This document shows positions 15,274 to 42,144 of a DNA stretch of 51,648 nucleotides, piece after piece. The notes under the pieces are model-generated. The model did not search any database and was not told the DNA's origin. It was given only the letters and a program-made list of their open reading frames with translations. The stretch lies in NCBI GenBank assembly GCA_017623055.1, contig JAGAPX010000001.1, positions 1-51,648 on the forward strand, in the 5' to 3' direction. Made by a program: the position numbers and the translations under genes. Source of the stretch: Phascolarctobacterium sp. (GTDB lineage Bacteria > Bacillota > Negativicutes > Acidaminococcales > Acidaminococcaceae). Within the stretch, counting starts at the first letter, position 1. Every line of letters starts with the position of its first letter.

Positions 15274-15517
15274 CCCCTGTAATTAATAAAATTACAGGGG
15301 CGAATAAATCGCGGTACCACCCTTATTTGTACACTTCATTACGCCTTAACGCGGCTCACGCCTTGCCTACGCAGCTTGCGCCTTCAACAAGGGCACTCCC
15401 AAGTGAACTTCAACCATAACTTCCGGGCAAGGCTTACAGCCAGCGACCTTGCTCTCTTAACCATCGTTTATAGCCTACTTTCTTGCTCATCGTGCAGAAC
15501 AGGGGCATTTTCAATTA
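15274..15517 (-). ncRNA. T-box riboswitch controlling pheST
   Basis: The minus strand carries the T-box core AGGGTGGTACCGCG (15310-15323), which pairs with the uncharged tRNA acceptor end. It is followed by a terminator hairpin CCCCTGTAAT ... ATTACAGGGG (15274-15300) and a U-rich tail. The upstream ~190 nt are structured as expected for stem I. A TTC triplet, the phenylalanine specifier, stands at 15405-15407 in GAAGTTCACTTGG, on the 3' side of stem I; that assignment is less sure than the T-box itself. By family, uncharged tRNA-Phe stabilises the antiterminator and switches pheST on. Confidence 0.9.
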
Positions 15518-38006: not shown

Positions 38007-39275
38007 TCAGGGGAAGAACGGCCATACCATCGGGATTACTACCAAGCAAACTGCAAAGGATACAGCTACGAGGCCGCAACCGCATTTTACATAGTCCATG
38101 AATTTGTAACCGCCAGGGCCGAGAACCAAGGTGTTCGGCGGGGTGCCTACCGGAGTTGCGAATGCGCAAGATGCTGCAACTGCGATTGCCATTACTACTG
38201 CTTTCGGGGAAGCGCCCAAGTTTTGAGCGATTGCGATACCGATCGGGCAGAGCAGAGCTGCGGAAGCGGTATTGGACATGAATTGGGTCAAGGTGCAGGA
38301 CAGTACGAACAGAACTGCAGTTACAACCAACGGGGACGGGGAGCCGCCCATGAGACCTACGGTCCATTCAGCGATGAGTTTGCCAGCGCCGGTTACGTCG
38401 ATTGCTTTGGATACAGGCATCATACCTGCAAACAAGAAGATGGTTACCCAGTCGATGGAAGCGTAAGCTTGTTTTTCAGTCAAGCAGCCGGTCAGTACGC
38501 AAACCAATGCGCCGATAACTGCTGCCATTTCCAAGGAAACGCCTTTAACGCCAACTGCCATTACCAATACTACGATTGCAAGGATAGCTGCAGAAACGTA
38601 TTGTTTGGTAGCGGAAGCTTCGTTAGCTTCGATTTCTTGTTCAATTTCTTGATCAGCATCGAGTTCAGCTTTCGGAAGCAGGTATTTACCTACGAACATC
38701 ATGTAGAGCATACCAGCTACGGATACAGGAACACCAATCCAAGCGAATTCGAAGAAGCCGAAGGATTCGAGACCAGCAGCATTCATAGCGCCTACTGCGA
38801 TGATGTTAGGCGGAGTACCTACCATGGTGATGATACCACCCCAACCGCAAGCGAATGCCAAAGGCATCAATTGACGGGAAGCGGGGATTTTAGCAGCGGA
38901 GCAGATACCCAAAGCTACGGGCAGCAAGCAAGCTGCAGTACCAGTGTTGGACAAGCAGGAAGACAGCACGGTGCCTACCAACATAAGACCAAACATAAGG
39001 CTGTTTTCGGAAGTGCCGCACATTTTTACTACGGTACCACCGATTTTTTGAGCAAGGCCGGTGTAGAACATGGAAGCACCTACAACGAACATACCGCCAA
39101 ACAATACTACGGTAGAGTTAGAAAGACCACTGAATACTTGTTTTGCCGGAATGAAGCCTAACAGGCCGCACGCAATAGCGCCGCCCATTGCAGTAATCGC
39201 CAAGGGAATAAGTTCGGTTACGAAGAAAAGCGCAACTACTGCCAACAGAATTAAACATTTAATTGCCGGGGACAT
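38007..39275 (-). CDS. DASS-family Na+/dicarboxylate transporter, intact copy
   Basis: 422 residues, about eleven hydrophobic segments. Both SNT signatures that bind Na+ and carboxylate are present (SNTGTAACLLPVA and SNTASAALLCPIG), each followed by a GTPPN motif (GTPPNIIAVGAMN, GTPPNTLVLGPGG). This is the SLC13/INDY pattern. Likely substrates are C4-dicarboxylates such as succinate, fumarate or malate; the exact one is not readable. ATG start with SD GGAGG. Upstream are a Crp-type palindrome and an extended -10 promoter. A tandem copy of about 94 percent identity (counted by eye) lies 338 bp upstream. Confidence 0.93.
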   Translation of the reverse strand: MSPAIKCLILLAVVALFFVTELIPLAITAMGGAIACGLLGFIPAKQVFSGLSNSTVVLFGGMFVVGASMFYTGLAQKIGGTVVKMCGTSENSLMFGLMLVGTVLSSCLSNTGTAACLLPVALGICSAAKIPASRQLMPLAFACGWGGIITMVGTPPNIIAVGAMNAAGLESFGFFEFAWIGVPVSVAGMLYMMFVGKYLLPKAELDADQEIEQEIEANEASATKQYVSAAILAIVVLVMAVGVKGVSLEMAAVIGALVCVLTGCLTEKQAYASIDWVTIFLFAGMMPVSKAIDVTGAGKLIAEWTVGLMGGSPSPLVVTAVLFVLSCTLTQFMSNTASAALLCPIGIAIAQNLGASPKAVVMAIAVAASCAFATPVGTPPNTLVLGPGGYKFMDYVKCGCGLVAVSFAVCLVVIPMVWPFFP

Positions 39276-39330: not shown

Positions 39331-39374
39331 ATAATAGCAACAAGGGCAGTATGCTTTCTGTTGCAAAAGCAACA
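39331..39374 (-). promoter_or_regulatory. Promoter of the intact DASS gene with a Crp-type site
   Basis: The palindrome TGTTGC-TTTT-GCAACA (minus strand, 39359-39374) is perfect. Then, 22 bp downstream, comes TGCTATTAT, an extended -10 (hexamer 39331-39336). There is no -35 hexamer; the palindrome takes its place. With a start near 39324 the site is centred at about -42, the class II activator position. The leader to the ATG is about 49 nt. Confidence 0.7.
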
Positions 39375-39613: not shown

Positions 39614-40852
39614 TCAAGGGAAGAAGGGCCATACCATCGGAATTACTACCAAGCAAACTGCGAAGGATACAGCTACAAGGCCGCAACCGCATTTTACATA
39701 GTCCATGAATTTGTAACCGCCAGGGCCAAGAACCAAGGTGTTCGGCGGGGTACCTACCGGAGTTGCGAATGCGCAAGATGCTGCAACTGCGATTGCCATA
39801 ACTACTGCTTTCGGAGAAGCGTTCAAGTTTTGAGCAATTGCAATACCGATCGGGCAAAGCAGAGCTGCAGAAGCGGTGTTGGACATAAATTGGGTCAAGG
39901 TGCAGGACAGTGCGAACAGTACTGCAGTTACAATCAACGGAGACGGGGAGCCGCCCATGAGACCTACGGTCCATTCAGCGATGAGTTTGCCAGCGCCGGT
40001 TACGTCGATTGCTTTGGATACGGGCATCATACCTGCGAACAGGAAGATGGTTACCCAGTCGATGGAAGCGTAAGCTTGTTTTTCAGTCAAGCAACCAGTC
40101 AGTACGCAAACCAATGCGCCAACTACTGCTGCCATTTCCAAAGAGATGCCTTTAACGCCGATAGCCATTACCAAAATTACTACGGTAAGGATAGCGCCAG
40201 AAATCATTTGTTTGGTTTTGTTGTCAGAAGAAGCTTCGATTTCTTGTTCAATTTCTTGATCAGCATCGAGTTCTGCTTTCGGGAGCAGGTATTTACCTAC
40301 GAACATCATATAAGCCATACCAGCCAAGGATACGGGGATACCGATCCAAGCAAATTCAAAGAAGCTGAAGGATTCGAGACCAGCAGCGTTCATTGCGCCT
40401 ACTGCGATGATGTTAGGCGGAGTACCTACCATGGTGATGATACCACCCCAACCGCAAGCGAATGCCAAAGGCATCAATTGACGGGAAGCAGGGATTTTTG
40501 CTGCGGAGCAGATACCCAAAGCTACGGGTAACAAGCAAGCGCAGGTGCCGGTGTTGGACAAGCAGGAAGAAAGTACGGTGCCTACCAACATAAGACCGAA
40601 CATAAGGCTGTTTTCGCCAGTGCCGCACAGGCTTACAACGGTGTTACCAATTTTTTGAGCAAGACCGGTGTAGAACATGGAAGCACCTACAACGAACATA
40701 CCACCAAAGAGTACTACGGTGGAGTTAGAGAGACCACTGAATACTTGTTTTGCCGGAATGAAGCCTAACAGGCCGCACGCAATAGCGCCGCCCATTGCAG
40801 TAATCGCCAAAGGAATAAGTTCGGTTACGAAGAAAAGCGCAACTACTGCCAA
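39614..40852 (-). CDS. DASS transporter, second copy with a lost start
   Basis: From a TTG at 40852 the frame encodes 412 residues, about 94 percent identical by eye to the intact copy, with both SNT and both GTPPN motifs. The homology begins at IKCLILL of the intact copy, but the first five codons and the GGAGG are gone. Upstream the frame reads TAA-ATT-TAT-TCG-TTT-AAA-TGT with no ATG or GTG, and no purine-rich SD precedes any candidate start. The crp terminator sits 43 bp upstream and no promoter is visible. The body is open to its normal stop, so the loss is recent, or a non-standard start is used. It may be a silent donor copy. Confidence 0.8.
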   Translation of the reverse strand: MAVVALFFVTELIPLAITAMGGAIACGLLGFIPAKQVFSGLSNSTVVLFGGMFVVGASMFYTGLAQKIGNTVVSLCGTGENSLMFGLMLVGTVLSSCLSNTGTCACLLPVALGICSAAKIPASRQLMPLAFACGWGGIITMVGTPPNIIAVGAMNAAGLESFSFFEFAWIGIPVSLAGMAYMMFVGKYLLPKAELDADQEIEQEIEASSDNKTKQMISGAILTVVILVMAIGVKGISLEMAAVVGALVCVLTGCLTEKQAYASIDWVTIFLFAGMMPVSKAIDVTGAGKLIAEWTVGLMGGSPSPLIVTAVLFALSCTLTQFMSNTASAALLCPIGIAIAQNLNASPKAVVMAIAVAASCAFATPVGTPPNTLVLGPGGYKFMDYVKCGCGLVAVSFAVCLVVIPMVWPFFP

Positions 40853-40894
40853 CAGAATTAAACATTTAAACGAATAAATTTATTTAAACAAAAG

Positions 40895-40990: not shown

Positions 40991-41659
40991 TTACTGCTTC
41001 AAAATTTCAAAGGTATTCTTTTCAAAAGCAATCATACCTTCGTCACGCATCCTTGCCAATTCGCGAGTTAAAGCACTGCGATCAGCATCCAAATAGTTTG
41101 CTAAATCGGTACGGCTAAACGGAACAACAAACTTTTTTGTGCCTGCATTAGCAGCTTCTTGTTCAAGATAAGCAAGAATTTTACCACGCAAAGTTTTTTT
41201 ACATAAGATTTCAGTTTTTTCGATGAGTCTGCTATTATTGTCCGCCAAAATTGCTACAATATTGCACATTAATTTATTATATGCTTTAGAATTATGCGGA
41301 TTTTCCAAAAATCTACCAAAAGGAAGCATCAGCACTTCACTATCGCTGGCAGCGAAATAGCTAACTATGCTTTTATCATGACGTCTGCCCAAATAACTTT
41401 CTGCAAAAACAGAGCCTGCTCCCAAATTTGCAATGATAGACTTATCACCCCAAATATCTTCTTTAATCATTTGTACCTTGCCATTTACAACAATGCACAA
41501 ATTTTCTACGCAGTCTCCCGCTAAAAAGATATAGTCAGATTTACGAAAACGTTTTACAAGTACAGTTACTCTGCTTAAAACCTCACTAATCTCTTCGACA
41601 TCCAATCCTTGAAACAAAGGAAGATCTACCAAATTTTGCACAGACATTCTTACATCCAT
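40991..41659 (-). CDS. Crp/Fnr-family transcriptional regulator
   Basis: 222 residues. The N-terminal cyclic-nucleotide-binding-like beta roll spans residues about 12-125; the dimer helix about 126-165; the winged helix C-terminus about 170-222 has FSRTDLANYLDADRSALTRE, with recognition helix RSALTRELARM. Cysteines at 50, 55, 132 and 153 are scattered and there is no N-terminal Fnr-type cluster motif. The cAMP-site residues of true CRP are not evident, so the ligand is unknown. SD AGGTGA precedes the ATG. Three copies of TGTTGC-N4-GCAACA lie upstream of it and one before the intact DASS gene, so this is probably its operator. Confidence 0.92.
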   Translation of the reverse strand: MDVRMSVQNLVDLPLFQGLDVEEISEVLSRVTVLVKRFRKSDYIFLAGDCVENLCIVVNGKVQMIKEDIWGDKSIIANLGAGSVFAESYLGRRHDKSIVSYFAASDSEVLMLPFGRFLENPHNSKAYNKLMCNIVAILADNNSRLIEKTEILCKKTLRGKILAYLEQEAANAGTKKFVVPFSRTDLANYLDADRSALTRELARMRDEGMIAFEKNTFEILKQ

Positions 41660-41710: not shown

Positions 41711-41738
41711 ATTATACATATAAAAATTTTCCTGTAAA
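41711..41738 (-). promoter_or_regulatory. Promoter of the crp-like gene
   Basis: Minus strand: -35 TTTACA (41733-41738), 16-bp spacer, -10 TATAAT (41711-41716). The start is predicted near 41704. The nearest palindrome (41772-41787) is centred about 75 bp upstream. Confidence 0.7.
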
Positions 41739-41771
41739 CATTTTGTAACTAAAGTAAGTATTAAGTAACTT

Positions 41772-41787
41772 TGTTGCTTAAGCAACA
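41772..41787. promoter_or_regulatory. Crp-type palindrome 1
   Basis: TGTTGCTTAAGCAACA, perfect 16-bp symmetry. Nearest to the crp promoter; a candidate autoregulatory site. Confidence 0.7.
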
Positions 41788-41887: not shown

Positions 41888-41907
41888 TAAAGTAAGCAGT
41901 TACTTTA
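41888..41907. promoter_or_regulatory. Second palindrome type TAAAGTAA-GCAG-TTACTTTA
   Basis: Perfect 8-bp arms with a 4-bp spacer. A related stretch, TTACTGCTTAC, lies at 41795-41805 in the opposite orientation. It adjoins palindrome 3 upstream of the small RNA promoter; a second regulator is possible. Confidence 0.45.
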
Positions 41908-41914
41908 ATATTTG

Positions 41915-41957
41915 CGTTGCTTTCGCAACACCTAACTATTTTTATTAAGGCTATAAT
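41915..41957 (+). promoter_or_regulatory. Crp-type palindrome 3 and small RNA promoter
   Basis: CGTTGC-TTTC-GCAACA (41915-41930, one mismatch) is followed 21 bp later by a perfect -10 TATAAT (41952-41957) with no -35. With +1 at 41964 the palindrome is centred at -41.5, exactly the class II activator position. The spacing matches that before the intact DASS gene (22 bp). Confidence 0.65.
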
Positions 41958-41963
41958 TTTTCT

Positions 41964-42058
41964 TAATAGCAAACGAGACATTTGCTTGGGGCATTAGAGA
42001 ACCTCTGATGCAAACTTTCGCCGGGTATATGAAGTTCAGCATGTGCCCGGTATCTTTT
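41964..42058 (+). ncRNA. Predicted ~95-nt small RNA
   Basis: Plus-strand transcript with three hairpins. Hairpin 1: AGCAAA / TTTGCT (41968-41986). Hairpin 2: GCATTAGAG, loop AAC, CTCTGATGC (41991-42011; 9 bp, one G-U). Hairpin 3: CCGGGTATATG / CATGTGCCCGG (42021-42050; 11 bp, two G-U, 8-nt loop), followed by TATCTTTTT. Unpaired stretches are TTGGG and AAACTTTCG. No open frame with an SD exists on this strand. The loop side of hairpin 2 offers ACCUCU, complementary to AGAGGU-type Shine-Dalgarno sequences. I do not recognise it as a known RNA family. Expression is inferred, not shown. Confidence 0.6.
42021..42058 (+). terminator. Terminator of the predicted small RNA
   Basis: 11-bp stem CCGGGTATATG / CATGTGCCCGG followed by TATCTTTTT on the plus strand. 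On the minus strand the hairpin is followed by CGAAAGTTTGC, without a T run, so it is strand-specific. Confidence 0.75.
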
Positions 42059-42085
42059 TACAAATTTATATCGCCCTATTTCTCA

Positions 42086-42121
42086 CCTCCTGTCGATGAC
42101 TATTATTGTTTAGGCAGGAGG
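42086..42121 (+). terminator. Second plus-strand hairpin with T tract
   Basis: CCTCCTG / CAGGAGG, 7-bp stem with a 22-nt loop, followed by ATTTTTATTTT. Possibly a back-up terminator for the small RNA or the end of a longer form. Confidence 0.4.
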
Positions 42122-42144
42122 ATTTTTATTTTGGCAAATAAAAA

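Follow-up and report, generated by a model that had tools for sequence, protein, structure and literature searches.

The best starting point for the locus described here is SgrR/SgrS of enteric bacteria, in which a short, nearly invariant stretch of SgrS pairs with the translation start region of the ptsG mRNA; in the canonical mechanism, the Shine-Dalgarno and AUG region is where pairing blocks ribosome binding (PMC4021124). Our candidate, too, is encoded beside the regulator that would activate it, as SgrS is beside SgrR (PMC4021124), and it shares with SgrS a short, near-invariant stretch complementary to the start of a transporter mRNA, an intrinsic terminator of its own, and Hfq in the genome. 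The differences are several: SgrS has 227 nt and the RNA here about 95, SgrR has its place taken by a Crp/Fnr-type regulator, dicarboxylate (DASS) transporters stand where SgrS has a sugar PTS transporter, and the predicted pairing, unlike that of SgrS, spans the AUG and early codons as well as the Shine-Dalgarno sequence. The SgrS family of Rfam does not match the RNA (no chance match was SgrS), no SgrT-like frame was recognised, every frame inside it is shorter than 40 aa, and at only 95 nt it has no room for the 43-aa SgrT. In other words, the RNA resembles SgrR/SgrS in its mode of action as predicted, is unrelated to it in sequence, and stands outside the SgrS family.

Other small RNAs—CyaR, Spot 42, FnrS and the NtcA-activated NsiR4—answer to Crp-superfamily factors and control metabolism by base pairing. 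The type of promoter and the predicted base-pairing regulation of metabolism are the same here, but their factors are global, whereas the boxes here are nearly limited to one cluster in most genomes, and none of the four matches the RNA in sequence or through Rfam. Like cis-encoded antisense RNAs, it has long, nearly gapless complementarity to the Shine-Dalgarno sequence, AUG and first codons of its target; unlike them, it is encoded in trans, is matched to several paralogs, and leaves a 4-nt gap in most duplexes. For Phascolarctobacterium itself, we found no small RNA described in the open-access literature, and the motifs that a structured-RNA survey lists from Negativicutes (gltD, ldh2, ilvD and potE) are all 5' elements of other genes.

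What, then, might a small RNA be doing beside such a regulator in such a bacterium? Phascolarctobacterium is a gut succinate specialist, turning the succinate made by Bacteroides into propionate, and the DASS transporters presumably carry succinate in this strain. We think it probable (about 0.74) that the window (the whole 51,648-nucleotide stretch of DNA that was analysed) encodes a trans-acting, base-pairing small RNA that is activated by the adjoining Crp/Fnr regulator alongside DASS genes and that represses DASS mRNAs. The grounds are computed ones: promoter layout, a conserved structured RNA, a terminator specific to one strand, operators in common, complementarity that is both ranked and conserved, and an Hfq gene. 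What is new is the probable target, mRNAs of SLC13/DASS dicarboxylate transporters. The proposed local regulon (Crp/Fnr regulator, DASS transporters and small RNA) comes with a mechanism testable at the level of single bases, and the predicted pairing shows experimenters which bases to alter.

The candidate RNA and its promoter

The element has the following parts in the window.

41915-41930 (centre 41922.5), plus strand: GTTGC-N4-GCAAC operator CGTTGCTTTCGCAACA, presumed Crp/Fnr-type activator site in class II position
41952-41957, plus strand: -10 hexamer TATAAT of the small RNA; 7 of the 8 genomes scored match it at 5-6 of 6 positions, 20-21 bp past the box
41964-42058, plus strand: candidate small RNA; fold z -4.3; covariance-model matches in nine genomes, E 4e-25 to 5e-5; Rfam blank
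41968-41986, plus strand: hairpin 1, AGCAAA-CGAGACA-UUUGCU, invariant in 7 sequences; its loop and 3' arm are part of the target-pairing core
41974-41997, plus strand: antisense core CGAGACAUUUGCUUGGGGCAUUAG, which matches DASS mRNAs as complement of AUG and codons 2-8
41991-42011, plus strand: hairpin 2, with compensatory changes; CU-rich loop in all homologues
42020-42058, plus strand: intrinsic terminator (hairpin 3 and T run) from the terminator scan, with compensatory changes

A sequence-only reading had proposed that an undescribed small RNA starts here from a class II Crp-type promoter and ends at a terminator of its own, and had placed a TGTTGC-type palindrome 41.5 bp before the start predicted from TATAAT; the proposal was borne out and its coordinates hold. 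The predicted start, 41964, lies 7 nt after TATAAT (it is inferred from that -10), and the operator is therefore centred at -41.5, upstream of a -10, where a Crp/Fnr-activated small RNA would have it. The promoter scan paired no -35 hexamer with the TATAAT, as one would expect of an activator-dependent promoter.

The RNA folds into three hairpins with a minimum free energy of -35 kcal/mol, against -21.1 +/- 3.2 for shuffled sequences, none of 200 being as good. Its terminator stem (42020-42051) has 12 pairs by scan and by minimum-free-energy fold, one more than the 11 that had been claimed, and it works, as had also been claimed, on the plus strand only; terminator-like sites in the region number three, with 0.3 expected. 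Promoter, intrinsic terminator and the lack of a conserved downstream gene are what marks a small RNA encoded in trans. At gathering and at relaxed thresholds alike, Rfam has nothing at the locus (best chance matches, E about 1). On the minus strand, ATGCCCCAAGCAAATGTC... and an SD-like AGAGG look like a DASS start, a likeness that comes from the plus strand being antisense to such a start; by inspection, frame and stops vary among genera, and a coding role was rejected.

Three observations lie to the side. Just past the small RNA, at 42077-42131 on the plus strand, CCTATTTCTCACCTCCTG...CAGGAGG is followed by a T run. Versions of this hairpin with different stems are present in each of the four genomes of the genus, and it would be another small RNA or a terminator in reserve. 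GTAA/TTAC motifs are repeated in front of the regulator gene (AAGTTACTTAATACTTACTTTAGTTAC, 41722-41770) and in front of the box of the small RNA (AAAGTAAGCAGTTACTTT, 41890-41907); they are largely conserved in relatives, which suggests a second DNA-binding factor. Elsewhere in the window, the minus strand carries a T-box leader at 15293-15499 (RF00230, 102.6 bits).

Had neither the hairpins nor the -10 been conserved in relatives, the sequence-only reading would have counted itself refuted; both are conserved. Box, spacing, -10-like hexamer and RNA occur together in every one of the four genomes that the GTDB genus has here and in five more from four other genera of the family, much more conservation than chance would give; the nine, all Phascolarctobacterium or near relatives, include P. 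faecium DSM 14760, whose copy lies on the minus strand of NZ_QLTS01000004.1 (L117:3480-3600). A DNA search alone finds the element in the same four of four, almost whole in another genus (two genomes) and partly in two further genera, each copy consisting of GTTGCNNNNGCAAC, an A/T-rich spacer with a -10-like hexamer, and then GCAAACGAGACATTTGC. A covariance model built from seven sequences and searched over 300 Negativicutes genomes added G035, where the first hairpin has diverged and the GAGACATTTGCTAGGGGGCATT core is unchanged. The 291 other sampled genomes gave no convincing covariance match (weak ones, L076-L082 and L087, were read and judged chance). To call the RNA Negativicutes-wide would overstate its range, since Phascolarctobacterium and its close relatives are the only places where it turned up.

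In hairpins 2 and 3, four pairs have changed on both sides, which 7 of 500 shuffles equal, and 94.5% of cells pair, vs 26-44% when the structure is slid. Hairpin 1 is invariant in the alignment and so is neutral for covariation; in G035, its 5' arm has diverged and can still form the hairpin with a G-U. The RNAs of P. faecium (G031), G035, G027 and G057 fold well below their shuffles (z -4.2 to -6.2), the minimum-free-energy structure of G057 being without hairpin 1. G036 has regulator and box and no small RNA at that locus, and G038 gives no covariance-model match, from which it follows that the RNA is dispensable. In G027 (an incomplete MAG), neither regulator nor DASS was detectable.

Shared operators and the neighbouring regulator

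Around the small RNA lie the genes and boxes that would make up its regulon.

40991-41659, minus strand: Crp/Fnr-family regulator gene (cNMP_binding + HTH_Crp_2), divergent from the small RNA
41772-41787, no strand assigned: TGTTGCTTAAGCAACA box upstream of the regulator gene, from the box search
39359-39374, no strand assigned: box TGTTGCAAAAGCAACA in the promoter of the DASS gene; TATTAT follows 22 bp downstream
38007-39275, minus strand: DASS (SLC13/CitMHS) transporter gene, TIGR00785 above cut-off; regulon member and weak predicted target of the small RNA

The regulator is like FtrB, FixK, Fnr and CRP only far below the curated cut-offs. The arrangement of a small RNA divergent from the regulator gene, with a DASS gene behind the regulator, recurs in the genomes of g1, g13, g14 and g18, and the genes on the far side of the small RNA vary (yfiH, an ogt-like gene and others). 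Exact TGTTGC-N4-GCAACA sites lie upstream of the regulator gene, the small RNA and DASS genes, and in the GTDB genus of the window and in G035 they are limited to this cluster; P. faecium has eight, three of them before DASS genes on three different contigs. The box before the regulator gene probably serves autoregulation.

Beyond the region of the small RNA and the crp-type gene, most of the genes that a box precedes belong to the DASS family, and the box keeps the same distance from the -10. That spacing is constant across the small-RNA promoters of nine genomes and the DASS promoters; a -10-like hexamer stands 20-22 bp behind the box in seven of eight small-RNA promoters (G002, with a poor -10, is the exception) and in most DASS promoters. 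Since palindrome and -10, about 21 bp apart, precede DASS genes as well, the small RNA and some DASS genes would form one regulon, and the class II geometry at both kinds of promoter makes it most likely that the same factor activates both. From the co-occurrence of gene and box, we infer that this factor is the adjoining Crp/Fnr protein, acting on the small RNA through the operator. In P. faecium, DASS transcripts are much higher in co-culture with a succinate producer, in a study that names no regulator (PMC7568257).

The genomes hold many near-identical DASS paralogs. Directly behind the regulator gene lies a second copy (39614-40870) that has no Shine-Dalgarno sequence and no ATGTCCCC... 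start, its remaining frame being intact; it would be decayed or silent.

Predicted pairing with DASS mRNAs

The conserved core, GAGACAUUUGCUuGGG(G/A)CAUUAG, and the pyrimidine loop of hairpin 2 are together antisense to the Shine-Dalgarno sequence, AUG and codons 2-8 of DASS genes. In P. faecium, the RNA contains UGCUUGGGACAU, which pairs without a mismatch over 12 nt with AUGUCCCAAGCA, the opening four codons in two DASS genes; the match was spotted by eye, and the test that followed took no account of annotation. RNAduplex scored every ORF start that an SD precedes; target ranking covered 0.84 of about 2.3 Mb in P. faecium (1,910 start regions) and 0.65 of 1.72 Mb in the genome of the window (G000).

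When the 1,910 are ordered by duplex energy with the full 5' part of the RNA, the first three are DASS starts, and the same three lead when the 24-nt core is used by itself (z -4.4 to -5.5, full part or core); one of them, G031:C1, was outside the first by-eye observation. Sixty shuffled cores brought a DASS start to rank 27 at best. With intramolecular folding allowed to compete (cofold), the three rank 1, 5 and 8. In the genome of the window, one DASS gene (G000:C26) ranks 2, 6 and 4 of 1,654 by the three measures, where a few unrelated starts score equal to it. The in-window DASS gene has a core dG of -20.3 (minimum-free-energy duplexes overstate energies) and rank 25, and is poor once folding competes (cofold rank 904). 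That is, the complementary stretch sets DASS starts above other genes clearly in P. faecium and places a single DASS start in the top 6 in the genome of the window.

The predicted duplex has two parts, the core lying on the AUG to codon 8 and the CU-rich loop of hairpin 2 on the Shine-Dalgarno sequence, with a 4-nt bulge on the mRNA side in most core-DASS duplexes. The sequence-only reading had paired ACCUCU with Shine-Dalgarno sequences of the AGAGGU type, and in kind it was right: this loop (ACCTCT, 42001-42006) is anti-SD in the predicted duplex. Its choice of targets, ktrB and ktrA, was not supported; AGAGGT starts in the window reach only -16 to -26 kcal/mol, about 1 sd around the mean of -21.4 +/- 4.5, and ktr mRNAs were rejected because such starts do not stand out.

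Judged by sequence, the pairing also follows its target when the target changes between genomes. MSQA-type DASS genes of P. faecium (CCCAAGC) meet GCUUGGG in the small RNA, and UGCUGGG in the RNA of G027 fits CCCAGCA (MSPA) of a DASS gene in its congener G026. Of six cores compared, that of the G035 RNA, which has one G more and is shifted by a base, suits the four G035 DASS genes best, and in G001-G003, G057 and G058, at least one DASS paralog reads ...AAAATGTCTC..., the pairing being extended through GAGACAUU of the hairpin-1 loop. Hfq (PF17209) is encoded in six of six genomes tested. The strongest targets in P. faecium adjoin the gene for the beta subunit of a sodium-translocating decarboxylase, an enzyme that is part of succinate fermentation.

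Put together, the mechanism would run as follows. The regulator next to the small RNA would bind the GTTGC-N4-GCAAC box and activate transcription of the RNA, and would likewise activate the box-bearing DASS genes for dicarboxylate (succinate) transport. The exposed loop and linker of the RNA (GAGACAUUUGCUUGGGGCAU) would then pair with the first eight codons of DASS mRNAs, start codon included, its CU-rich loop with their Shine-Dalgarno sequence, and ribosome binding would be blocked, probably with the help of Hfq.

Feedback, transporter switch and other readings

Suppose that the RNA and its DASS targets are real: what would such a circuit be for? It may be plain negative feedback (an incoherent feed-forward loop), in which the RNA damps the very transporters that the regulator turns on and no paralogs are exchanged, a plausible reading on which we would nonetheless not put even odds. 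Two box-bearing DASS genes are indeed among the best targets in P. faecium (the duplex ranks 2-3, cofold ranks 5 and 8), and in all of the best P. faecium DASS targets, the duplex covers Shine-Dalgarno sequence and AUG. Plain feedback sits poorly, however, with the cofold result that the strongest DASS target has no operator within 250 nt in eight of eight genomes (chance about 0.015 by simple multiplication, the genomes not being independent) or with the box-bearing DASS genes of G000 and G002, which pair at merely -4.0 and -2.7 kcal/mol.

Because the strongest predicted targets are box-less paralogs, an active regulator might have the regulated transporter made and the others silenced. Such an exchange of DASS paralogs by one regulator is suggested and we rate it no higher, since the genomes are not independent and the difference between box-bearing and box-less DASS genes by duplex energy is weak (p 0.04, with the same dependence among genomes); the cofold comparison is more consistent and itself no more than suggestive. 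If true, a single transcription factor would replace one transporter of succinate by its paralog. Once reverse-complemented, the P. faecium RNA can be aligned over 56 columns with the start of a DASS gene, Shine-Dalgarno sequence included; the score is 42, and the highest among 500 shuffles is 28. Such a likeness could come from a target start that was duplicated in inverted orientation or from convergence, with pairing under selection. We venture, tentatively, the idea that the small RNA is a switch born of such a duplication, its regulator inducing one DASS gene and the RNA silencing the operator-less sisters.

It is unlikely that the RNA, though real, has its main targets elsewhere, with DASS a minor one. 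Two starts have long perfect complements to it and good duplex energies: in P. faecium, that of a 1,261-aa protein (L130:14857-14900, MQMSRKAGLAKKIAHTL...; 13 nt, to hairpin 1), possibly a second target, and in the genome of the window, that of the aspartate carbamoyltransferase gene pyrB (11525, minus strand; 10 nt). Each, however, was ranked in one genome only, whereas DASS is the only family high in both scanned genomes and pairs in the other genomes examined as well. Less likely by some way is that the locus is a leftover: a DASS start copied in inverted orientation, which came by chance to lie behind a Crp box, inherited its complementarity and has no regulatory role. The alignment just described is what inverted duplication would leave, but a leftover would not, in five GTDB genera, still have its box, spacing and -10 together with covarying hairpins and a terminator for one strand, and it would not track changes in the target. 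We give almost no weight to the idea that the RNA belongs to a plus-strand gene farther down, as its leader or attenuator, which would fit the ogt-like gene on the same strand behind the terminator in G057 and G058, but which leaves the DASS complementarity unexplained and meets downstream genes that vary among genera, a convergent next gene in the window, and a strong terminator with no alternative antiterminator seen.

Against these readings, we keep to the trans-acting small RNA of the regulator and its DASS genes. A hairpin shared by seven genomes, GCAAAC[CGT]GGACATTTGC, was considered as a second copy of it and rejected, since it belongs to a different noncoding element, one that adjoins an AdoCbl riboswitch wherever such a riboswitch was detected. 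This conserved noncoding stretch (L049:1380-1560, minus strand; also L065, L064, L040, L041, L061, L060 and L066) has no Rfam match, carries pyrimidine-rich, anti-SD-like runs and, where looked at, has a terminator of its own. In L049 and L005, it follows the AdoCbl riboswitch and the riboswitch terminator with no intervening gene, and it may be a riboswitch-controlled small RNA.
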